64,000 nt of DNA, taken from Nitrospina sp. LS_NOB (GTDB taxonomy: Bacteria > Nitrospinota > Nitrospinia > Nitrospinales > VA-1). Positions 4,989 through 20,161 of this stretch are shown piece after piece. The stretch is taken from contig LFLA01000021.1 of NCBI GenBank assembly GCA_001542995.1, forward strand, positions 1 to 64,000, read 5' to 3'. The notes under the pieces are model-generated. The model ran no database searches and was not told where the DNA came from. It saw only the letters and a program-made list of their open reading frames with translations. Made by a program: the position numbers and the translations under genes. Positions within the stretch are counted from its first letter, which is position 1. The number at the start of each line of letters is the position of its first letter.

Positions 4989-6035
4989 TCAATCGGTCTG
5001 ATCCAACATGATATTTTCAAGAGAGTGGTAGTACGGCAGGATTCTGTCACTCTCCATAAACGCTCTACCAGCCTCTCGCTTCAAACGAACATCAGCTACG
5101 CTCAACGACCGAGCATAAGCTAACAAAGAATCCCATTGATCGAATTTTCGACAATCTATAAAGCAATCTTCTGGAATGTAGCTGGTAATATCTTTTGCTC
5201 CCAGATATAAAGGGATTGTACCCGCATACAAACAATCAAATATTTTTTCTGTGATGTATCCCCTCATTGCCATATTTTCGAAGCATAAGGCAAAACAATA
5301 CTGACTCAGCACCTCATACTTGGATGCGCATGCCCCCTGATAAATGGACATAAGTGTCCTGCGATGCCGCCAATATGGCAACCACATAGAGCTACGAGAC
5401 CACCATCTCTGCCACCCTCTTCCATAAAGATCCACAGCACCAAGCTTAGCCAAATCAGCAAGGGCCTCAATACGTTTACTGTATAGCTCTTCATTAAAGG
5501 ATGCTGGCTTGCAATTACCATTAATCATCACAATCTTTTTACTGCGATCTTCTTTTCCCCAAAACTGTTTTATTACCCCTTGATACGGAATAGGCCAATA
5601 CAGTTTTCTGAGAACATCTTTTCTAACACCATCAAACGAGTATCCATCTCCATGAGTGTTATGGATATAAACTCGCTCAAATTGTGCAGTGAAACTAGAA
5701 AGGTCAGCGTAAAGACCAGGGGCTACGACTGGGGGCTCCATTAGCAAGAAACCTCTCAACTTGACACTCAGCTCTTGAAGCATAGAGATATCTGGGCTTA
5801 ACCCCATTGAATAATAATCCCCCCCCCCACTATCTTCTGCCTCTATGCGCAACTTATCCGCAGTAGAAATATTGTAACCTTTTTGGCGAGCCGCATCACG
5901 GAGACGCACCATAGCAATCAGCTGATCATCACGGTTTAATATCGGATCCGAAAGGTCAAATAGTTTATCCTCTCCAAATGCCACATAAGCAGGATCAATA
6001 TAAATATTTAACGCACTTGCTTCCAATGAGGTCAT
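4989..6035 (-). CDS. GT10-like fucosyltransferase with internal G10 tract
   Basis: 348 residues. The C-terminal block CFENMAMRGYITEKIFDCL followed by AGTIPLYLG is the GT10 alpha-1,3/1,4-fucosyltransferase signature (FENS..YVTEK...G..P). Such enzymes use GDP-fucose or related GDP-deoxyhexoses, and the window encodes Gmd and a GMER-like reductase, so the donor is made in the same operon (GDP-fucose or GDP-colitose). A run of ten C on the plus strand (5819-5828) encodes Gly-Gly-Gly near residue 70; in this sequence the frame is open. The start ATG overlaps the upstream stop (ATGA). Confidence 0.83.
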   Translation of the reverse strand: MTSLEASALNIYIDPAYVAFGEDKLFDLSDPILNRDDQLIAMVRLRDAARQKGYNISTADKLRIEAEDSGGGDYYSMGLSPDISMLQELSVKLRGFLLMEPPVVAPGLYADLSSFTAQFERVYIHNTHGDGYSFDGVRKDVLRKLYWPIPYQGVIKQFWGKEDRSKKIVMINGNCKPASFNEELYSKRIEALADLAKLGAVDLYGRGWQRWWSRSSMWLPYWRHRRTLMSIYQGACASKYEVLSQYCFALCFENMAMRGYITEKIFDCLYAGTIPLYLGAKDITSYIPEDCFIDCRKFDQWDSLLAYARSLSVADVRLKREAGRAFMESDRILPYYHSLENIMLDQTD

Positions 6036-9733: not shown

Positions 9734-11164
9734 TTACTCCCCTACTCTATTCGTCAGATGCTTCCTTAGAAACAAATATTGCAAGCCCGAATATGTCGTA
9801 CCAGCTATCACCAAAATCCCCAACGCTCCCTGCCAGCCTGGAATATGGAGTAAATGCCTAAACCCGAACGTCATCGTCCATAATGCCAGACCTCCACCCC
9901 CCGCAATCAATACTGGTCTAACACGAGGCCCACCACCAACCCGTTTAACCAGAAAAATATGCATCAAGATGACAATAGTAAAACCTGACAATACCAACCC
10001 CATCCCCACACCAGCCGTTCCAAACCCGGGAATAAACAAAGCGGTTAGAGTGATGGCTAAAAATGCCCCAACCAAATTAGGTAAAATTAACCAGCGGGTT
10101 CGCATAAATACATATGCGATCAACGAATATACACCCATCAACACTCGCGCAGCCTCAGCAAGTGCGCCCCAAAGCACATAATCCACAGCAGATTGGAAAT
10201 TTTCTCCAAGAAGTACTCGGGTAAGCTCTGGCGCCAACACCACTACCAAGGCAACAGTAAGTATCAGAGATGGGATTACAGTAGCGGCATAACGCTGCCA
10301 GGCTTCCGCTTGTCTAACAGGGTCACTTTTACTCACACCACGATATAAACGCGGTTGGAAATAAGTCGTCAGGACAGACTCAAAACCCGCAATCATCCCG
10401 GCACTGATACCATACCCCGCGACAAATAGCCCCAGCTCAGCAAAGCCAAGCGATCCTTCTATAAGATAGCGGTATCCTTGCCCTTGAATCCAGCCTAATC
10501 CTGCCGCTATAGAAACAGGCCACGCAAAATGAAAAAGAACCAGCAAATGTCTTTTTTGAATACTTGCGGATACCTGCGCGCGCACCCTTCTCAACTTTGT
10601 AAACAGCGCTCTGGCGCCCACAAGGGCCAAGATAGCTTGCCCCAACAAAATACCAGACACCCAATACTGAGCTACCGGTTCAAGAACAATCACCAGCAGC
10701 GTCGCGCAAGAGAGACTCATAGCCACCGTACATACGGATAGCAACATGAAGTGCCGACTATCCCCCAATAAGTTTAAAGAGGGAATTGCTGTTTGGTTAA
10801 TTGTATTAAATACCAATGACCCGCAAAGTAAAAAAGTTAACCAGCTAAAAGAAACTCCAAAGTTTATCGATCCACTTATATAAAGAAGCCGCAACAGAAA
10901 TGCGGCAACAAACGCCGACAACAACAGATAAAACACATAACGAATAAAATAGTATTGCGCCATGCCGCCGGCTTGCCAGGCATGTAAGCGGCGATTAATG
11001 AACATGCCAACGGGATTAATCAGAAACATAGCGAAGAAAGCGATAGTGGTCAGAACCAACGACACTCGGCCCATTTCCTCCGGCGACAACAGTGTTGTGG
11101 CAACGCGCATCATCACAAGAGCAAGCAGGAATTGGGCTACCCTGCCGAAAATAATAGTAATCAA
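9734..11164 (-). CDS. Wzx-like oligosaccharide flippase
   Basis: 476 residues with about 12-14 hydrophobic segments spread over the whole length, the MOP/polysaccharide-exporter pattern. The N-terminus (FGRVAQFLLALVMMRVATTL followed by LSPEEMGRVSLVL) matches the typical opening of O-antigen flippases. It would flip the undecaprenyl-linked repeat unit across the inner membrane. It is the only flippase in the locus. TTG start overlapping the upstream stop (TTGA). Wzx sequences diverge strongly, so the call is by topology and context. Confidence 0.82.
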   Translation of the reverse strand: MITIIFGRVAQFLLALVMMRVATTLLSPEEMGRVSLVLTTIAFFAMFLINPVGMFINRRLHAWQAGGMAQYYFIRYVFYLLLSAFVAAFLLRLLYISGSINFGVSFSWLTFLLCGSLVFNTINQTAIPSLNLLGDSRHFMLLSVCTVAMSLSCATLLVIVLEPVAQYWVSGILLGQAILALVGARALFTKLRRVRAQVSASIQKRHLLVLFHFAWPVSIAAGLGWIQGQGYRYLIEGSLGFAELGLFVAGYGISAGMIAGFESVLTTYFQPRLYRGVSKSDPVRQAEAWQRYAATVIPSLILTVALVVVLAPELTRVLLGENFQSAVDYVLWGALAEAARVLMGVYSLIAYVFMRTRWLILPNLVGAFLAITLTALFIPGFGTAGVGMGLVLSGFTIVILMHIFLVKRVGGGPRVRPVLIAGGGGLALWTMTFGFRHLLHIPGWQGALGILVIAGTTYSGLQYLFLRKHLTNRVGE

Positions 11165-12099
11165 TTGCGAACAGCCAAGCGTTTAAGTATCGCTGTCACT
11201 TCCTGTATGACACCCTCTAAAGAGGTCAATGAAGGCTGATAACCAAATTCAGCGGCACAGGTATTCAATGAATAATAATGAGGTTTAGCCCCTGTAGCAT
11301 TCACAATTGTCGCAGTCTCAGTAATGTCATACTGCAATCCAAATTGTTCTTGCATTACGGCTAATAAACTCAATTTATCAATCGGAGCACGACTATAACA
11401 ATCAACAACCGTATTGCTCATTGGACCGGCCAACAATACAGTGACTAATCTATAAAAATCGAAGGGATGGAGATAATCACGAACGGTATATTCGGACGAA
11501 GTTTTTAATACGGTCCGATCACGAATGGCTCGCAAAATATCCGTAATTAAGAAGCAGGCGGAGATATCTTGTGTGCGGCTAAAATAGTTGAATACCCGTA
11601 TATCGATGATCGAATAGTCAGGATGTGCCCGGTGCCTGCATTCTGCATGCAACTTAGCAACACCATACCAATCTTGTGGTGCTAAATTATTAATTGCTAT
11701 TACAGCTTGTGTATCACTATCCGCCGGTTCGATAAAGCTCGTTCCGTAGGCTGAACCGCTACTTAGGAACAGATAGCGGCATGCAGAATGCGACCGCAAA
11801 TACTCCAGCACCATCTCATCAAACCGCAATGTCACGTCAAAAATAGCATTGCCCAACACCACAGTTTGTGCCGGGTTCCCAATACCGACGAAGTTAATAA
11901 CCGCATCGAGCTTGCTATGAGCAAAACCAGAGAAGTCATCCACACGGTAACGGTCAGTTAGACCTGTGAGTGATAACCATGCGATCACTTTATCGGGTCG
12001 TCGCGCAAATAGATACAATTGGATATCTTCTGTTTTGGAAAAAGAGATAACCAGGTCTTTGGCAATTTGGCTGGTCGCGCCAAGAATAGCTATTCGCAT
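11161..12099 (-). CDS. NAD-dependent epimerase/dehydratase (extended SDR)
   Basis: 312 residues. Rossmann start MRIAILGATSQIAKDL (a GATSQIA variant of the GXXGXXG motif), catalytic Ser in LFLSSGSAYG and the YxxxK pair in DWYGVAKLHAE. In place directly after the split transketolase and rfbFGH genes, it could reduce the keto group left by a transketolase-type carbon transfer, as YerF does in yersiniose synthesis; that role is inference. Overlaps both neighbours (10 and 4 bases). Confidence 0.8.
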   Translation of the reverse strand: MRIAILGATSQIAKDLVISFSKTEDIQLYLFARRPDKVIAWLSLTGLTDRYRVDDFSGFAHSKLDAVINFVGIGNPAQTVVLGNAIFDVTLRFDEMVLEYLRSHSACRYLFLSSGSAYGTSFIEPADSDTQAVIAINNLAPQDWYGVAKLHAECRHRAHPDYSIIDIRVFNYFSRTQDISACFLITDILRAIRDRTVLKTSSEYTVRDYLHPFDFYRLVTVLLAGPMSNTVVDCYSRAPIDKLSLLAVMQEQFGLQYDITETATIVNATGAKPHYYSLNTCAAEFGYQPSLTSLEGVIQEVTAILKRLAVRN

Positions 12100-12992
12100 A
12101 ACCCTTCCAAACTCAAACCTCCTTCACGATTCAAACAAGGTTGTTTACCCACCATTCCACAAACTTTCGCGTCAAGAGACTTAATTCTAATTCGTGTTAA
12201 TAATTGCCTATGCGCAGAAGCTGCCTCCAGCAACCAACTGCCAAACCCGCCGTCTATGAGATGGTCCTCCACTGTATGAGTGGCTGAAAAATATTTAAGT
12301 TTTTCCGGCTGTTCCTTTTTTGTGTTCATACTCCATAAGGGCAAAGAATTTAAAGACCAATTTTCCAAGTCCGCGTTACTCTCTAAAAGTTCGTTCACTA
12401 ATCCAAGTGCCGTTCCGGTAGTCAGATAAGTGCCGCCGCCCTGTTTACCGTTTCTAATATTGACCCATTCCCCGGGGGCTATCTCAGGAACCTTGGAATG
12501 CACACATGCCTCACCACTTTTCCCTAATCGCAAATAACAAGGTTGCGGATTATTGACGATATATCTCATGCACCCCCTCACTTCCATTGGATCACCCGGT
12601 GCCGCAATCAACATATTTGGCATCACACGCATTAACGCGAAATCCTGCACTGCATGGTGGGAATAGCCAAGGTTCCCGTACGCTAACCCACCACCCACTG
12701 CGACTATCGTTACCGGAAAATTATGGTAGGCTATGTCATTACGAATTTGCTCGGCGCACCTAAAAGTTGGGAAATTCGCGATTGAATAAACGAAAACATG
12801 ACAGCCTTCTGAAGCGAGACCTGCTGCCACTCCCATCATATTTTGTTCTGCGACTCCAGCATTAATAAAACGGTCAGGAAAACGTTCCACAAATGGCTCT
12901 ATCGTGCCAAAACCTAAATCACCAACAATCAAGACAATCTTTTCATTACTCTTAGCAGCAATAATCAGCTCATCAATAAAAGCATCACGCAT
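12090..12992 (-). CDS. Transketolase-like protein, C-terminal subunit
   Basis: 300 residues corresponding to the pyrimidine-binding and C-terminal domains of transketolase. The Pyr domain shows VGDLGFGTIEPF and NAGVAEQNMMGVAAGLA with the catalytic Glu that protonates the thiamine N1'. Split transketolases work as alpha2beta2 with the N-terminal subunit encoded just upstream (8-base overlap). The setting between CDP-3,6-dideoxyhexose genes and an SDR points to a dedicated sugar-modifying role rather than the pentose phosphate pathway. Confidence 0.88.
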   Translation of the reverse strand: MRDAFIDELIIAAKSNEKIVLIVGDLGFGTIEPFVERFPDRFINAGVAEQNMMGVAAGLASEGCHVFVYSIANFPTFRCAEQIRNDIAYHNFPVTIVAVGGGLAYGNLGYSHHAVQDFALMRVMPNMLIAAPGDPMEVRGCMRYIVNNPQPCYLRLGKSGEACVHSKVPEIAPGEWVNIRNGKQGGGTYLTTGTALGLVNELLESNADLENWSLNSLPLWSMNTKKEQPEKLKYFSATHTVEDHLIDGGFGSWLLEAASAHRQLLTRIRIKSLDAKVCGMVGKQPCLNREGGLSLEGLCE

Positions 12993-13791
12993 GCTTCACC
13001 CCAAGTTCGGCCATCGCAGAACCCAGTTGCCTGTCGTCTGGACATTTATAGTGCCATTCAACTCGATTTTCCATGAAGCTAACACCCTTACCTTTGACAG
13101 TATGCGCCACAATGACCACAGGTTGACTATCTGATTCTTTCTTAAACACATCAATAAGTTGATTATGATTGTGCCCATCAATTTCATGTACCAGACAGCC
13201 AAATGCTTTCAATTTATCGACAAGTGGCTCAAGCCCCATTGTGAGTTCGACGGGTTTTAGGCTCTGCAGCTTGTTATAATCAATAATTGCCACTAAATTT
13301 GAGAGTTTGTAATGTGCGGCAAACATCAGTGCTTCCCAATTCGAGCCTTCGTCCATCTCACCATCTCCGAGCAAAACAAACGTCTTCCATGTTTCACCAC
13401 GAATCATTGCGGCCAAAGACTTACCCACTCCAAAAGGCAAACCATGGCCCAAAGAGCCTGTGGAAAATTCTACACCTGGTACTTTATGGCTAATATGATT
13501 CATTAACCATGAAAAATCTTCACCATAAGTTCCTAGTTGTTCTTTAGGAAAAAACCCTGCTTCCGCCAATACGGCATAAATAGCAACGCACGAATGTCCC
13601 TTGCTTAAAATGAAGCGGTCACGCAAGCTGGATGTTGTGTCATTAGGGTCAAAACTCATTATTTCGCCATACAAAACTGCCAATATATCCGCAATAGAAA
13701 GTGCACTCGCAATATGTGGTCCCTTGGATTTATGCACCATTTTTAAAGACTGTTGCCTAATAATATTGGCAAGAATTCGCGTATTCTTCAT
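12985..13791 (-). CDS. Transketolase-like protein, N-terminal subunit
   Basis: 268 residues, the PP-binding domain of a split transketolase. Seen: [35 protein letters not shown] and the thiamine diphosphate motif [15 protein letters not shown] continuing to IIDYNK (GDG...N). It overlaps rfbH by 4 bases upstream and the partner subunit by 8 downstream, so all are one transcript. Known split transketolases transfer a two-carbon ketol unit; transfer onto the C4 ketone of a CDP-3,6-dideoxy-4-keto sugar is my inference. Confidence 0.88.
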
Positions 13792-15104
13792 TTTGCAAAT
13801 ACCCCAAAAAACGATCCCAGTTTCTCCACTACAAACCCCAGCATTTCTTCGGTTAAACCGGGATATACACCAATCCAGAAAGTATCGTTCATCACCTTAT
13901 CAGTGTTGGTCAGATCACCACTAATTCGATAGGTGCGACCTTCAAAATACGGTTGGCGTATAAGATTGCCGGCAAACAACAGGCGCGTACCAATCTTGAA
14001 TTGATCCAGATATTTCAACAATTCGACTCGCGCGACCCCTGCTGAGTCACGCAGTGTCACTGGAAAACCAAACCATGAGGGCTCACTGCCTACAGTAGCT
14101 TTCGGCAATATCAAGAACTTCTCGCAAGGTTTTAGTCGTTCCGAAAGGAAAGCAAAATTACGTTTACGCGCTTCTACAAATGCTGGCAACTGGTCCATCT
14201 GCGCTAACGCGCAAGCCGCCTGCATGTCGGTGATCTTTAGATTGTAGCCTAAGTGCGAGTAGGTATATTTGTGGTCATATCCTGCAGGCAACGATCCCAA
14301 TTGCCAGCCAAAACGCTTCCCGCAAGTATTGTCAGCACCGGGTTCGCAAAAACAATCACGCCCCCAATCCCGAAAAGATTCAATGATTTTTCGAAGTTTG
14401 CGATCTCTGCTGAACACCATCCCCCCCTCTCCCATAGTGATATGGTGGGCAGGATAAAAACTACAGGTAGCAATATGACCGAAGCCTCCTACATGCTTGC
14501 CTTTGTACGTTGTACCTAATGCATCGCAACAATCCTCTACAACCCATAAATTGTGTTTTTCAGCCACTGTCATAACCGCATCTAGATCGAACGAGTTGCC
14601 GAGAGTGTGCGCGATCATAATGGCACGGGTACGGTCGCTCACCGCCGCTTCGATTTTTCCCGGATCGATATTATAGGTGGGGATATCTATATCAACGAAT
14701 ACCGGCACCAGACCCGCATGTAAAACCGGATTAACGGTGGTTGGAAAACCAGCCGCAACAGTGATAACCTCATCATCAGGCTTTAACGCCTGCTCACCTA
14801 ATTTAGGTGACGTCAGCGTAGTTAAAGCCAATAAATTCGCTGATGAACCAGAATTAGTCGTAAAAGCATAAGTCACACCCACAAATTTGGCAAAACGCTT
14901 CTCGAATGAGTCATTAAATCGTCCTGTGGTCAACCACCCATCCAAAGAGGCATCGACCATATTTTTCAGTTCACTCGCACCCAGCATTTTGCCTGAAGGT
15001 GGTATAACACTGATACCCCTGTCAAATGGCTTTTCCTCAAAATGTAATTCACTATATTGCTCAACCAGATCAAATATTTGTTGTTTGATATCTGCCTTAT
15101 CCAT
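13788..15104 (-). CDS. rfbH: CDP-4-keto-6-deoxyglucose 3-dehydrase (RfbH/E1)
   Basis: 438 residues, the length of RfbH/AscC. The PLP site reads [14 protein letters not shown]: histidine replaces the usual lysine, the hallmark of 3-deoxygenating members. A C-X-C-X7-C run in [13 protein letters not shown] plus the earlier Cys pair in EDCCDALG match the [2Fe-2S] ligands of E1. The enzyme uses PMP and electrons from an E3 reductase (RfbI/AscD) to make CDP-3,6-dideoxy-4-hexulose. No E3 gene is seen in the window. ATG start, 13 bases after rfbG. Confidence 0.93.
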
Positions 15105-15117
15105 TTAAAAATTTCAC

Positions 15118-16197
15118 TTAATGTTTTTTTAATCTATCGTTATATGCATTGATCTGACGCAACGTCAATTCACGCAAATCCTGCCCATTCAAGTATCCAC
15201 GATACCAATCAATGATCGCATCCAATGCCTCTTCAAGATGCCATTTCGGTTGCCAATCCATGCGTACACGTGCCTTTGAACAATCCAGCTGAAGGTAGTG
15301 CGCCTCATGTGGATGGTCAGCATCATCCCTCACCCAGGTAGCACCCTCGCCCCAATTACTGGTCAATTTTTCAACAATCCATTGCACCGGCTTTGCGTCG
15401 TCATCGTCGGGACCAAAATTCCAGGCTTCCGCGTAATCTGTTCCCTTTTTGTAGAGATTTTGAGCCAGTAGCAGGTAGCCGGATAGCGGTTCCAACACAT
15501 GCTGCCAAGGACGAATGGCGTACGGATTACGAATATTAACCGGCTCGCTTTGACTGATTGCGTTCATAATATCGGGGATAAGCCGATCTTCCGCCCAATC
15601 ACCACCACCAATCACGTTACCCGCCCTGGCGGAAGCCAAAGCCACGCCATGCTGGTTATATTGTTCATGGTTAAAGTATGAATTACGATAAGCTACTGTC
15701 ACCAATTCAGAACAGCCTTTACTATTACTATAGGGATCATAGCCCCCCATCGCCTCACTCTCTCGATAACCCCATATCCGTTCTTGATTTTCGTAACACT
15801 TATCGCTGGTGACATTAACCACCGCCTTCACACTATCCGACCCGCGCACAGCTTCAAGAAGATTAACGGTCCCCATCACATTGGTGGAGTAGGTTGCCAC
15901 TGGTTCACTGTATGAACGACGAACTAACGACTGTGCTGCCATGTGGAACACAATTTCGGGCCTATGCTCGTCAAATACCTTATGCAAACTCTCCAAATCA
16001 CGAATATCACCAATAATGCTGATCATACCTTTGCCGATGTTAGCGGCTTCAAACAAGCCAGGATTTGTCGGTGGCTCAAGCGCATACCCGATTACCCTGG
16101 CATTCATTGATTGCATCCAGAGCGACAGCCAACTACCTTTAAACCCTGTATGCCCGGTCAGCAGGACACGTTTATCTTTCCAGAAACCCGGGTTCAC
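15118..16197 (-). CDS. rfbG: CDP-glucose 4,6-dehydratase
   Basis: 359 residues from a GTG start. Extended [20 protein letters not shown] is the RfbG-type nucleotide loop, with [11 protein letters not shown], the catalytic Thr in [10 protein letters not shown] and YxxxK in [12 protein letters not shown]. It converts CDP-glucose to CDP-4-keto-6-deoxyglucose. The family opens with (M)NPxFW right before the Rossmann strand, and here [10 protein letters not shown] begins with a GTG at 16197 that overlaps the rfbF stop as GTGA; the longer ATG frame from 16233 adds 12 unlikely residues. Confidence 0.94.
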
Positions 16198-16967
16198 GAC
16201 CAAGTATTCCAAGGTGCCTGGCCAGATTGCCATAAGTCTTCTAAATGTACTTTATCGCGTAAAGTATCCATCGGTTGCCAAAAACCATGGTGATGAAAAG
16301 CGGCTAAATCACCTTCTTCCGCTAGACGCTCCAGCGGTTCATTTTCCCAAGCCACACTGTCATCCGCGATATAGTCAATAACTTTCGGCGATAGAACAAA
16401 AAAACCAACGTTAATCATTGCCCCATCTTCCTTGGGTTTTTCCCTGAAGTTTTCAACCTTGTTTCCCGTTAAATCTAACGTGCCAAAACGTCCTGGGGGA
16501 ATGGTCGCCGTCAAAGTCGCTTTGACTTTTTGAGCCTTGTGAAAAGCAATTAAGTCGGTAATATTAACGTCACTTACGCCATCGCCATATGTGAGACAAA
16601 AAGCTTCTTCGTCCTTCACATAATCCGTGACTCGTTTCAAACGGCCTCCAGTCATGGTATCTTCGCCGGTATCCACCAGAGTTACTTTCCAAGGTTCAGC
16701 GTTGCACTGATGCACCTGCATCTTGTTATGTTCCATATCGAATGTGACATCAGACATGTGCAAAAAATAATTAGCAAAATATTCTTTGATGACATAGCCC
16801 TTGTAACCACAACACACCACAAACTCATTAATGCCATGAGCAGAATAAATTTTCATAATGTGCCAAAGTATTGGTTTTCCGCCAATTTCTATCATCGGCT
16901 TTGGCTTTAAATGTGTTTCCTCCGAGATACGGGTCCCAAACCCACCGGCCAGGATGATTGCTTTCAT
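16194..16967 (-). CDS. rfbF: Glucose-1-phosphate cytidylyltransferase
   Basis: 257 residues, the normal RfbF length. Starts [18 protein letters not shown], the nucleotidyl transferase signature, followed by [20 protein letters not shown]; the C-terminal [15 protein letters not shown] is typical of RfbF. It makes CDP-glucose from CTP and glucose-1-phosphate, supplying rfbG, which follows with a 4-base overlap. Confidence 0.95.
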
Positions 16968-16978
16968 TAATTATTTCC

Positions 16979-18145
16979 TTATAATTTAGCAAGTGCCATA
17001 AAGGCTTCCGGGATTGGGTAATGATGGTTGCCTACGAATAATCCCTTTTGATCAATATGATTGGCGTTTTTCAAAGTGCCATGCACTTCCGAATCGAAGT
17101 ATTTCACCACTTCATTGCTAGCGAAATTACCTGCAACAATAGGTCGGCATTCAAAGCCTAAGTCATTCAGTTTCACCACCAACGATTTACGAGTAAGTTT
17201 GCTGCCCGGACGAATCACTAAACTGAAACCGAACCAACTGCTTTCACCAGTTTCATTCTGAATCAGAATATCGGGGTGTTCATATAGCGTTTTCTGCAAT
17301 AATTTTCCATTTTTTCTGCGCTCAGCAACCAATGCAGGCAATTTCTTAATCTGTTCAACGCCAATAGCTCCCAACATATCAAGTGGTCTTACGTTGTAAC
17401 CAGGTAGTACAAACCGGAAGGATTCTTCGAAAGGATCATCGCTTTTATCACTGCATACCAGATTGTGTTTGGGCAGGTTACGCGTCCAGCCATGTGAGCG
17501 TAGTGATAACAGAATTTGATACATTTCTTCATCATCTGTCACGATCATGCCTCCTTCCATAGTGGAGATATGGTGGCTAAAGAAAGTACTAAAACTCCCC
17601 ATTACACCAAAGGTTCCGGCCATTTTTCCGTTGTATTTAGCTCCCATGGACTCGCAATTGTCTTCTATCAAGACAATATTTCGCCCGCCAATGATATCGT
17701 TGATACGGTCAAAATCGTTAGGGTTACCCAACAAGTTCACCGCCATGATCACTCGAGTCTTATCGGTAACAGCTTGCTCCAATTGATCAAGATCATAATT
17801 CAATGTATACAAGTCAATATCGACAAACTTGATCTTCAAGCCATATTGATACAATGGGTAATAGGTCGTGCTCCAGGACACAGCTGGCACAATGGCTTCA
17901 TCGCCACGCTTTGACTTCAACTGCTGATTGTTGGTATAAAATAGTGTGGCGATCATTAATAAATTAGCGGATGATCCGGAATTCACCATTACACAGTAAT
18001 GACTACCCATACAATCAGCAAAGTCTTGTTCAAAAGCCTGTACATTCGCTCCCATACTGTACATGCCCGAGTCGATAACTTGCCGCATGCCATCAAGTTC
18101 TTCTTGTCCCCAGGAAACGGTGGCTAATGGATACTCGAAATTCAT
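16979..18145 (-). CDS. colD: PLP/PMP-dependent sugar 3-dehydratase, ColD-like
   Basis: 388 residues, the size of ColD. DegT fold with histidine in place of the PLP lysine (FFSHHISTMEGGM) and EDNCESMGAKYNG before it. Unlike RfbH it lacks the C-X-C-X7-C iron-sulfur run, which fits ColD: that enzyme removes the C3 hydroxyl of GDP-4-keto-6-deoxymannose using glutamate and no E3. Immediately preceded by GDP-mannose 4,6-dehydratase and a GMER/ColC-like reductase, so GDP-L-colitose is the likely end product. Overlaps the upstream gene by 4 bases. Confidence 0.85.
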   Translation of the reverse strand: MNFEYPLATVSWGQEELDGMRQVIDSGMYSMGANVQAFEQDFADCMGSHYCVMVNSGSSANLLMIATLFYTNNQQLKSKRGDEAIVPAVSWSTTYYPLYQYGLKIKFVDIDLYTLNYDLDQLEQAVTDKTRVIMAVNLLGNPNDFDRINDIIGGRNIVLIEDNCESMGAKYNGKMAGTFGVMGSFSTFFSHHISTMEGGMIVTDDEEMYQILLSLRSHGWTRNLPKHNLVCSDKSDDPFEESFRFVLPGYNVRPLDMLGAIGVEQIKKLPALVAERRKNGKLLQKTLYEHPDILIQNETGESSWFGFSLVIRPGSKLTRKSLVVKLNDLGFECRPIVAGNFASNEVVKYFDSEVHGTLKNANHIDQKGLFVGNHHYPIPEAFMALAKL

Positions 18146-19074
18146 TGTTGATGCTCCTTCAAATAATAGCTGTATGTTTCCGCGATTCCTTCACGCAAGT
18201 CATGACTTACCTTCCAACCCCATGCTTGCTGTCGTTCAGTACTAACCAATTTTCGCACCACACCAACAGGTTTACTCAAATCGTGGGTAAACCCGCCCTT
18301 GTAGCCCAGTACATCGGCAACCGCTTGGTAGTATTCATTAATGGTATAATCATGTCCCAAGCCAATGTTCATCATAGACGGTAGAGAATCAAACGCTTTG
18401 ATTGCCCGAATCATGGCATCTGCTAAATCACTCGCATACATAAATTCTCGACGCGCAGTACCATTTCCCCATATCTCGACAGTCTGTCGCCCATCGTGTT
18501 TAGCCTGAAACACTTTGTGGATGATTGCGGGGACAAGATGCGAATGCGCAGGATCAAATTTGTCATAACGACCATAAATATTGCAGGGGATGAGCGTTTT
18601 ATATTGATAATTCTCATTTTCACGCACAATATATTCGCAAAGGCGTGCGGTCACAACCTTGGCCAACGCATAACCTTCATTGGTTGGTTCCAACTCACCT
18701 TTGAGCACCATTTCTTCGCGCAACGGCTCAGATTGATTACGTGGATACATGCAGGAACTTCCCAGGTTAATCAGGCGGTTAATTCCAGCCTGACAGCTAG
18801 CCCAGACAATGTTGCGCCCCATGTCCAGATTGTCCATCAGAAAACCCACTGGTTCTCGCATGTTGGCCTGAATACCGCCAACTTTACCTGCCGCATGGAT
18901 AACCATATCAGGCTGATGCTTTTTCAAATACGCTTGCACAGCATCGAAATCGCGTAGATCTAATTCACTACTACGTGGAGCCAGCACATCAAACTCGTCT
19001 CTATCAGGATGATCAAGAAAATTACGACCGACCATACCGCCACCGCCAGTCAATAATATACGAGGCTTACTCAC
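18142..19074 (-). CDS. fcl: GDP-L-fucose or GDP-L-colitose synthase
   Basis: 310 residues, GMER-type extended SDR. Rossmann loop [14 protein letters not shown], catalytic Ser and Cys in [10 protein letters not shown], YxxxK in [11 protein letters not shown], and the epimerisation histidine in [11 protein letters not shown]. It performs C3/C5 epimerisation and reduction on GDP-4-keto-6-deoxymannose (fucose) or, after ColD, C5 epimerisation and reduction (ColC, colitose). The ColD-like gene directly downstream favours colitose, while the GT10 gene would fit either. GTG start overlapping the gmd stop by 8 bases. Confidence 0.9.
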
Positions 19075-20161
19075 GATAATTTAAAGTATCGTAACCATGC
19101 TTTTTCACGAGTTCATCGCACTTGGCAATTTTAATATCTTCCCTCACCATTTCACTAACCAACTCTTCGAAAGTAATTTTTGGAACCCAGCCAAGTTTAT
19201 TTTTAGCATTACTTGCGTCACCCAATAATGTTTCAACTTCAGTGAGGCGAAAGTATCGTGAATCAACTGCGACAATACATTTACCAGAAGCATCGTAGCC
19301 TTTTTCTTCTACACCCTCACCACGCCAGGCTATTTCCACTTCAAGTTCGCTGGCTACCGCGTTCACAAAATCACGCACGCTGTACTGCGTACCTGTAGCG
19401 ATAACAAAATCTTCAGCCTTGTCTTGTTGCAACATCAACCACTGCATCTCCACGTAATCCCTGGCATGCCCCCAATCGCGCAGCGCATCCAGGTTACCCA
19501 GGTACAAACATTCTTGCAATCCAAGTTTGATACGCGCCAAGGCGCGCGTAATCTTGCGCGTAACAAAGGTTTCACCTCGCACCGGACTTTCATGATTGAA
19601 CAAAATGCCATTACAGGCATAAATGCCGTATGCCTCACGGTAATTGATAGTGATCCAATGCGCGTAAAGCTTAGCTACCGCATAGGGGCTCCGAGGGTAG
19701 AACGGCGTTGTTTCTTTCTGAGGAGTCTCTCTCGCCTGTCCATATAACTCAGAAGTAGATGCCTGGTAGAAACGCGTCTTTTTTTCTAATCCAAGAATAC
19801 GAATCGCTTCCAACAGACGTAAAGTACCCAATGCGTCTGAGTTAGCCGTATATTCAGGCTCTTCGAACGAGACAGCCACATGACTTTGCGCCGCGAGGTT
19901 ATAAATTTCGTCCGGCTGAACTTTCTGGATAATATGCGTCAGGCTGGATGAATCGGTCATATCTCCATGATGGAGAAAAAATGACTGTCTTTTCTCATGA
20001 ATATCATGGAACAGATGGTCAATGCGTGCCGTATTAAACAGGGAGCTACGCCGTTTAATACCATGCACCTCATACCCTTTCTCCAGTAACAGATCAGAAA
20101 GATAGGCGCCATCTTGCCCTGTAACACCTGTAATCAATGCGATTTTCCTGGTTTTGCTCAT
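19067..20161 (-). CDS. gmd: GDP-mannose 4,6-dehydratase
   Basis: 364 residues. Opens [20 protein letters not shown] and [19 protein letters not shown], both diagnostic for Gmd; YxxxK in [13 protein letters not shown] and the substrate loop [20 protein letters not shown] are present (split here as [10 protein letters not shown] and RGETFVTRK). Makes GDP-4-keto-6-deoxymannose, the branch point for fucose, colitose and other GDP-deoxyhexoses. ATG start three bases after the frame-restored end of the upstream membrane protein gene. Confidence 0.96.

Follow-up and report, generated by a model that had tools for sequence, protein, structure and literature searches.

A split transketolase in a CDP-3,6-dideoxyhexose operon

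Upon recomputing the open reading frames (ORFs) of a 64,000-nucleotide stretch of Nitrospina sp. LS_NOB (contig LFLA01000021.1, positions 1 to 64,000; hereinafter the window), with families called by profile searches and bit scores compared with the cut-offs, we retrieved a tight minus-strand operon that embeds both chains of a split transketolase (TK) among genes for the synthesis of a CDP-3,6-dideoxyhexose. In the order rfbF-rfbG-rfbH-TKN-TKC-SDR, these genes are:

16194..16967, minus strand: rfbF, glucose-1-phosphate cytidylyltransferase, yielding CDP-glucose (TIGR02623, 470 bits, cut-off 300)
15118..16233, minus strand: rfbG, CDP-glucose 4,6-dehydratase, yielding CDP-4-keto-6-deoxyglucose (TIGR02622, 521 bits, cut-off 278)
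13788..15104, minus strand: rfbH (E1), pyridoxamine phosphate- and [2Fe-2S]-dependent CDP-4-keto-6-deoxyglucose 3-dehydrase (PRK15407, 735 bits, cut-off 423)
12985..13791, minus strand: TKN, thiamine diphosphate (ThDP)-binding (PP) chain of the split TK (PF00456, 111 bits; 246 bits to the 6yak N chain)
12090..12992, minus strand: TKC, pyrimidine/C-terminal chain of the split TK (PF02779, 103 bits; 133 bits to 6yaj)
11161..12099, minus strand: extended short-chain dehydrogenase (SDR), proposed branch-ketone reductase (PF01370, 61 bits)

Four of the five junctions among these genes are overlaps (rfbF/rfbG by 40 nucleotides, rfbH/TKN by 4, TKN/TKC by 8, and TKC/SDR by 10), the exception being rfbG/rfbH, which lie 13 nucleotides apart. 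An earlier note, made from the sequence alone, had reported the six genes on one strand in this order, with which our ORFs and families agree, and had seen the TK pair in the place that the ThDP-dependent enzyme YerE takes in the yersiniose pathway. This placement is borne out by the enzymes around it. Yersiniose synthesis likewise follows the CDP-glucose route through RfbF, RfbG, and E1, after which a ThDP enzyme puts the branch on the 4-keto sugar; a reductase is expected to act as well, and the product enters lipopolysaccharide (LPS) (PMC12247030, PMC4753412). In the window, the supply of the CDP-3,6-dideoxy-4-keto sugar is complete, with RfbF, RfbG, and RfbH all present, and RfbH, which scores 702 bits against the Yersinia enzyme (3bcx), is a true E1 in which the dehydrase H220 and the four [2Fe-2S] cysteines C193, C251, C253, and C261 are conserved. 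The note's further statement that a YerE-type flavoprotein is missing is sustained by family searches across the genome (2.65 Mb, 98.8% complete): two of its three proteins with the TPP_enzyme_N domain typical of the YerE superfamily score as acetolactate synthases encoded some 130-160 kb outside the window, the third is a weak 187-residue match on another contig, and this search identified no YerE-type decarboxylase-superfamily flavoprotein in either the window cluster or the rest of the genome. Likewise, no acetolactate-synthase-like gene was found in the related loci that we compared.

The transketolase pair belongs to a remodelled clade

Among solved structures, TKN and TKC come closest to the paired chains of the split TK from Carboxydothermus hydrogenoformans (6yak and 6yaj). 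TKN has an intact ThDP/Mg motif (G142-D143-G144 together with N173) and the donor-end histidines H26, H66, H99, and H247 (human H37, H77, H110, and H258), and TKC retains the catalytic E49 and R2. The acceptor pocket of TKC is rebuilt, with I71, H112, and H113 lining it next to G100, L108, K158, and G29, which stand in for human H416, D424, R474, and S345, a constellation distinct from that of canonical TKs. The Carboxydothermus enzyme shares the two-chain architecture and the ThDP and donor residues, but it keeps all four of these acceptor residues, in contrast to the G, L, K, and G of the window pair. Human H416 is presumably a sugar-phosphate-binding residue; we further take human H110 to be equivalent to H100 of the Escherichia coli TK, and human S345, D424, and R474 to its S385, D469, and R520.

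We aligned 45 TKs of this NDP-sugar type with 30 canonical TKs, among them the human and Carboxydothermus enzymes, whose sequences were taken from pairwise alignments. In human numbering, the ThDP and donor residues H37, H77, H258, N185, R318, and E366 occur in all 45 and H110 in 44 of them. Replacements at the opposite end of the pocket are comparably regular: H416 is replaced by G and F389 by I in every member, D424 by L in 42, and R474 by K in 41, while S345 is variable and histidines are found at positions 428 (45/45) and 429 (44/45). In the corresponding tree one branch separates the 45 remodelled from the 30 canonical TKs (Shimodaira-Hasegawa-like approximate likelihood ratio test support 100). 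Since it keeps the ThDP and donor residues and has others at the acceptor end of the pocket, this family looks, as far as its sequences go, like one that couples TK donor chemistry to a different acceptor. A partial parallel is the E. coli TK, in which S385, D469, and R520 were mutated to shift acceptors from phosphorylated to non-phosphorylated aldehydes; the evolved variant S385Y/D469T/R520Q is changed at the three equivalent positions and has an acceptor scope widened away from phosphates (PMC5073344). That is a laboratory variant acting on aromatic aldehydes, whereas the replacements described here are natural and fixed and extend to the H416 equivalent.

The retained donor histidine bears on the nature of the transferred unit. 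In E. coli, H100 separates TK from the pyruvate-using 1-deoxy-D-xylulose-5-phosphate synthase (DXPS), which has Phe (PMC7661550). This diagnostic Phe is absent from the window TKN, which has H99, and 44 of the 45 clade members have His; because the histidine is kept, transfer of hydroxyacetyl is favored over that of acetyl. Were the pair to transfer a pyruvate-derived acetyl unit after all, it would be a functional copy of YerE with yersiniose as product, an idea with which its genetic position agrees; moreover, the operon occurs in a metagenome-assembled genome (MAG) of a Legionellaceae bacterium, and yersiniose A is ascribed to Legionella LPS in a reference cited in PMC7867332. In view of the near-universal histidine, we regard acetyl transfer as distinctly unlikely.

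Beyond the operon, the genome encodes a second split TK (C26:127025-128307), which is canonical in retaining H416, D424, R474, and S345, and a DXS-length protein on contig C25. With this second TK at hand, the rfb-operon pair is neither the sole nor the housekeeping TK of the organism, and service in central metabolism as its only TK, which would have spoken against a dedicated role, does not apply. The pair could still be an ordinary TK that provides some other polysaccharide unit with a sugar-phosphate precursor, such as sedoheptulose 7-phosphate or pentose phosphates: ordinary split TKs occur in related bacteria as in this genome, and certain TKs of the clade adjoin a GmhA-like SIS protein. 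Nevertheless, the separate canonical enzyme, the loss of H416 in all 45 clade members and of D424 and R474 in nearly all, and the failure of family searches to find a heptose-pathway gene in the window cluster make such a role very unlikely.

The rfb-transketolase neighborhood recurs across phyla

A scan of 84,980 species genomes by TKN similarity alone recovered 40 loci, which we then scored with the window proteins. At least one of rfbF, rfbG, and rfbH occurs in 33 of them, rfbG in 29, and all three together in 16; the rfb genes often abut TKN-TKC, and some of the remaining loci end at contig edges. Such recurrence in many other genomes indicates that the arrangement is not due to chance. 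These loci span Proteobacteria, Bacteroidota, Chlorobiota, Cyanobacteria, and other phyla, with Microcystis and Methylovirgula among the members. The order rfbF-rfbG-rfbH-TKN-TKC-SDR is reproduced exactly in six proteobacterial loci (L037, L038, L039, L041, L047, and L050), which include Burkholderiales, Legionellaceae, Azonexaceae, Gallionella, and a magnetotactic bacterium, and the annotated plasmid pHY1 of Methylovirgula sp. HY1 shows the variant rfbF-rfbG-SDR-rfbH-TKN-TKC. In an even draw of 369 genomes from the class to which G107 (the Chromobacterium genome with locus L043) belongs, the TK type is present in 13, and rfb genes adjoin it in five of these. The Burkholderiales MAG locus L037 additionally shares gmd, fcl, ColD, a flippase, and two glycosyltransferases with the window at 54-79% identity, which suggests that the whole cluster was probably moved by horizontal transfer.

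Thirteen loci combine rfbF/rfbG with the TK pair and have no rfbH nearby; three of the genomes concerned (G120, G121, and G131) have such a match elsewhere, and the other 10 show no RfbH match at E<=1e-60. This runs counter to the original view of rfbH as an essential partner, and the recurring core is therefore rfbF and rfbG with the TK pair, usually accompanied by the SDR, to which rfbH is an add-on. By the same token, CDP-4-keto-6-deoxyglucose may also serve as an acceptor.

The SDR abuts the TK pair in most loci. Its catalytic triad (S114, Y145, and K149) is invariant in the alignment, and an AlphaFold model built from a 14-sequence alignment (predicted local distance difference test score 85) matched GDP-4-keto-6-deoxymannose reductase best in Foldseek searches, with a CDP-glucitol-pathway reductase also among the top matches; the modelled fold would thus place it only in the general nucleotide-sugar SDR family of reductases and epimerases. 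If the SDR acted as an oxidase before the TK, as the oxidoreductase does in the miharamycin model (PMC12247030), it could create a ketone elsewhere on the sugar, for example at C2 or C3, for the TK to branch. In many relatives (clusters c5 and c8) the SDR gene indeed lies upstream of TKN. It is found downstream in the window and the c7 loci, however, gene order is a poor guide to reaction order, and 29 of the 40 loci carry rfbG and so already have a source of a C4 ketone; we consider this alternative unlikely.

In L040, L043, and L045, a DegT-type protein is encoded directly before TKN, where other loci have the SDR. By inspection, that of L040 reads as a fusion of an acetyltransferase with a DegT aminotransferase, which would agree with a new ketone being aminated and not reduced.

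A second type of remodelled TK, mostly with a GLSYA.LG.THHS-type motif, is seen in L080, L081, L086, and L120-L125, as well as in the window's own genus (G008 and G009). In L080, which is devoid of rfbG, the TK adjoins genes for a GmhA-like SIS protein, epimerase-type SDRs, a kinase-like protein, a methyltransferase, and a Zn-dehydrogenase. Three plasmid-borne TKs, L092 (the streptomycete one nearest by identity), L093 (Deinococcus), and L095 (Bradyrhizobium), were set aside, as their contexts are rfb-less and catabolic-looking or unclear.

A predicted route to a branched C8 sugar

We propose the following route. RfbF and RfbG would produce CDP-4-keto-6-deoxyglucose, from which RfbH would take off the 3-hydroxyl to give CDP-4-keto-3,6-dideoxyglucose. 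With hydroxypyruvate or a ketose as donor, TKN and TKC, jointly holding ThDP, would transfer a hydroxyacetyl (1,2-dihydroxyethyl) unit to the ketone at C4, which would become a tertiary alcohol bearing a -CO-CH2OH branch. Reduction of the branch ketone by the SDR would then yield CDP-3,6-dideoxy-4-C-(1,2-dihydroxyethyl)hexose, a C8 sugar resembling a hydroxylated yersiniose and presumably destined for a surface polysaccharide. That the pair is a split ThDP-dependent TK of a distinct clade, transferring hydroxyacetyl to C4 of a CDP-4-keto sugar ahead of reduction by the SDR, we judge to be reasonably probable. The gene content and order, the conservation across phyla, the single clade, the intact ThDP and donor residues, the replaced acceptor residues, and the separate housekeeping TK are computed observations, and from this point we infer the acceptor, the C4 position, the donor, the C8 product, and the SDR step.

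Several considerations weigh against this proposal. Attack of the ThDP intermediate on a ketone, as opposed to an aldehyde, is rare. The literature that we searched offers neither an assayed member of the remodelled clade nor an LPS sugar carrying hydroxyacetyl or 1,2-dihydroxyethyl as a branch, and the nearest precedent, the TKs of the miharamycin and amipurimycin pathways, has a role untested in vitro (PMC12247030). Some clade TKs stand beside GmhA-like isomerases, epimerases, or aminotransferases in loci without rfbG, so the remodelled family is not tied to CDP-sugars. The rebuilt phosphate end of the pocket also appears to speak against ordinary ketose-phosphate donors.

The electron supply of RfbH is a further such point. 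E1 enzymes require a [2Fe-2S] E3 reductase as electron donor (PMC8987622), and an E3/RfbI/AscD-type reductase was not found, there being zero matches to FAD_binding_6 (PF00970) in the whole genome. Of 18 related genomes whose loci are rfbH-type or similar, 15 encode a FAD_binding_6 protein and three do not; no such gene was seen among the neighbors of the TK cluster that were inspected, although no systematic check was made. One could imagine that TK chemistry has been lost or that the ThDP intermediate serves another step, for instance by furnishing electrons to an RfbH deprived of E3. We deem this highly improbable: the catalytic Glu and the ThDP residues are intact, and the 10 genomes without any RfbH match nonetheless pair the TK with rfbF/rfbG. 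The genome also encodes small Fer2-domain proteins, and SpnQ, a related dehydrase, draws on general ferredoxin or flavodoxin reductases; a general electron donor for RfbH is, on these grounds, the simplest guess.

Thus, the core idea of the earlier note is supported, and its interpretation as a whole partly so. It had envisaged the transfer of a glycolaldehyde unit from a ketose phosphate to C4. The kept ThDP and hydroxyacetyl-donor residues and the rebuilt acceptor pocket favor the transfer; the ketose-phosphate donor is left unsupported and doubtful, since the residues that grip the sugar-phosphate end in ordinary TKs (H416, D424, R474, and often S345) are replaced, hydroxypyruvate or some other donor being no less likely. 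The conserved rfbH-transketolase neighborhoods that it had suggested looking for do exist across phyla. It mentioned neither the second split TK of the genome nor the upstream extension of the operon described below.

Relationship to known branching systems

Relative to the yersiniose system, the window has a split TK in place of YerE, the transferred unit is probably hydroxyacetyl and not acetyl, and the genome yielded no E3. With the miharamycin and amipurimycin systems it has in common a two-chain TK beside keto-sugar-forming enzymes, whose proposed task in those pathways is hydroxyacetyl transfer to a keto sugar (PMC12247030); those are nucleoside antibiotics of streptomycetes, whereas here we have a CDP-sugar polysaccharide operon found in many phyla, and the comparison is drawn from published descriptions. 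A 2025 review counts 13 candidate split TKs for such branching, all from Streptomyces and none characterized, attributes sugar branching in LPS to YerE-like enzymes, and regards the use of ketone-accepting TKs as not shown (PMC12247030). Our literature searches on LPS clusters that combine a TK with CDP-glucose dehydratase or rfbH returned no relevant paper. The exopolysaccharide cluster wps-2 of Actinoplanes missouriensis contains a split TK and two DegT aminotransferases, with the role of the TK unstated (PMC13390465); this TK may belong to the same family as the window pair.

What is new is the enzyme and, probably, the two-carbon unit, the ThDP-dependent branching of nucleotide keto sugars itself being of a known kind. 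To the wider proposition, that one split-TK clade, present in many phyla, has nucleotide-activated keto sugars as its direct substrates (CDP-4-keto sugars for the rfbFG type and other NDP-sugars elsewhere) and so defines an unrecognized class of hydroxyacetyl- or dihydroxyethyl-branched surface sugars, we give roughly even odds. If true, it would constitute a second ThDP route to branched LPS sugars, by way of TKs in CDP-sugar operons; it would lead one to expect C8 sugars of an uncharacterized class in bacteria that can be cultured, Chromobacterium, Bacteroides, and Microcystis among them; and it would offer a source of natural ketone-accepting TKs.

The surrounding polysaccharide locus

The operon continues on both sides of the six genes:

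19067..20161, minus strand: gmd, GDP-mannose 4,6-dehydratase (TIGR01472, 581 bits)
18142..19074, minus strand: Fcl-like SDR, candidate ColC (GDP-L-colitose synthase; NF047922, 310 bits, below the cut-off of 500)
16979..18145, minus strand: ColD, GDP-4-keto-6-deoxymannose 3-dehydratase, in the same operon and of a separate GDP-sugar pathway (533 bits to E. coli WbdK/ColD, 2gms)
9734..11164, minus strand: polytopic membrane protein, candidate Wzx-type flippase (ORF; 57% identical homolog in the cluster shared with L037)

Family profile searches gave no match for the membrane protein, whose gene overlaps that of the SDR by 4 nucleotides and which may be a Wzx flippase. Further downstream are genes for glycosyltransferases, an initial sugar-phosphate transferase, an aminotransferase, and a hexapeptide acetyltransferase, which mark the region as a polysaccharide locus. 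The GDP-L-colitose set of gmd, the Fcl/ColC-like gene, and ColD (16979-20161, minus strand) lies upstream of rfbF in the same operon as the rfb and TK genes, and the polysaccharide may therefore hold two different 3,6-dideoxyhexose-derived sugars. In the related loci, a GT2 (GtrB-like) glycosyltransferase recurs near the TK pair (L036, L039, L042, L046, L055, L060, L063, L065, L069, L070, and L072), apparently fused to a GtrA-like part in L036, and suggests undecaprenyl-phosphate-linked sugar transfer. Finally, the window itself contains a gene of the GT10 fucosyltransferase family at 4989-6035.

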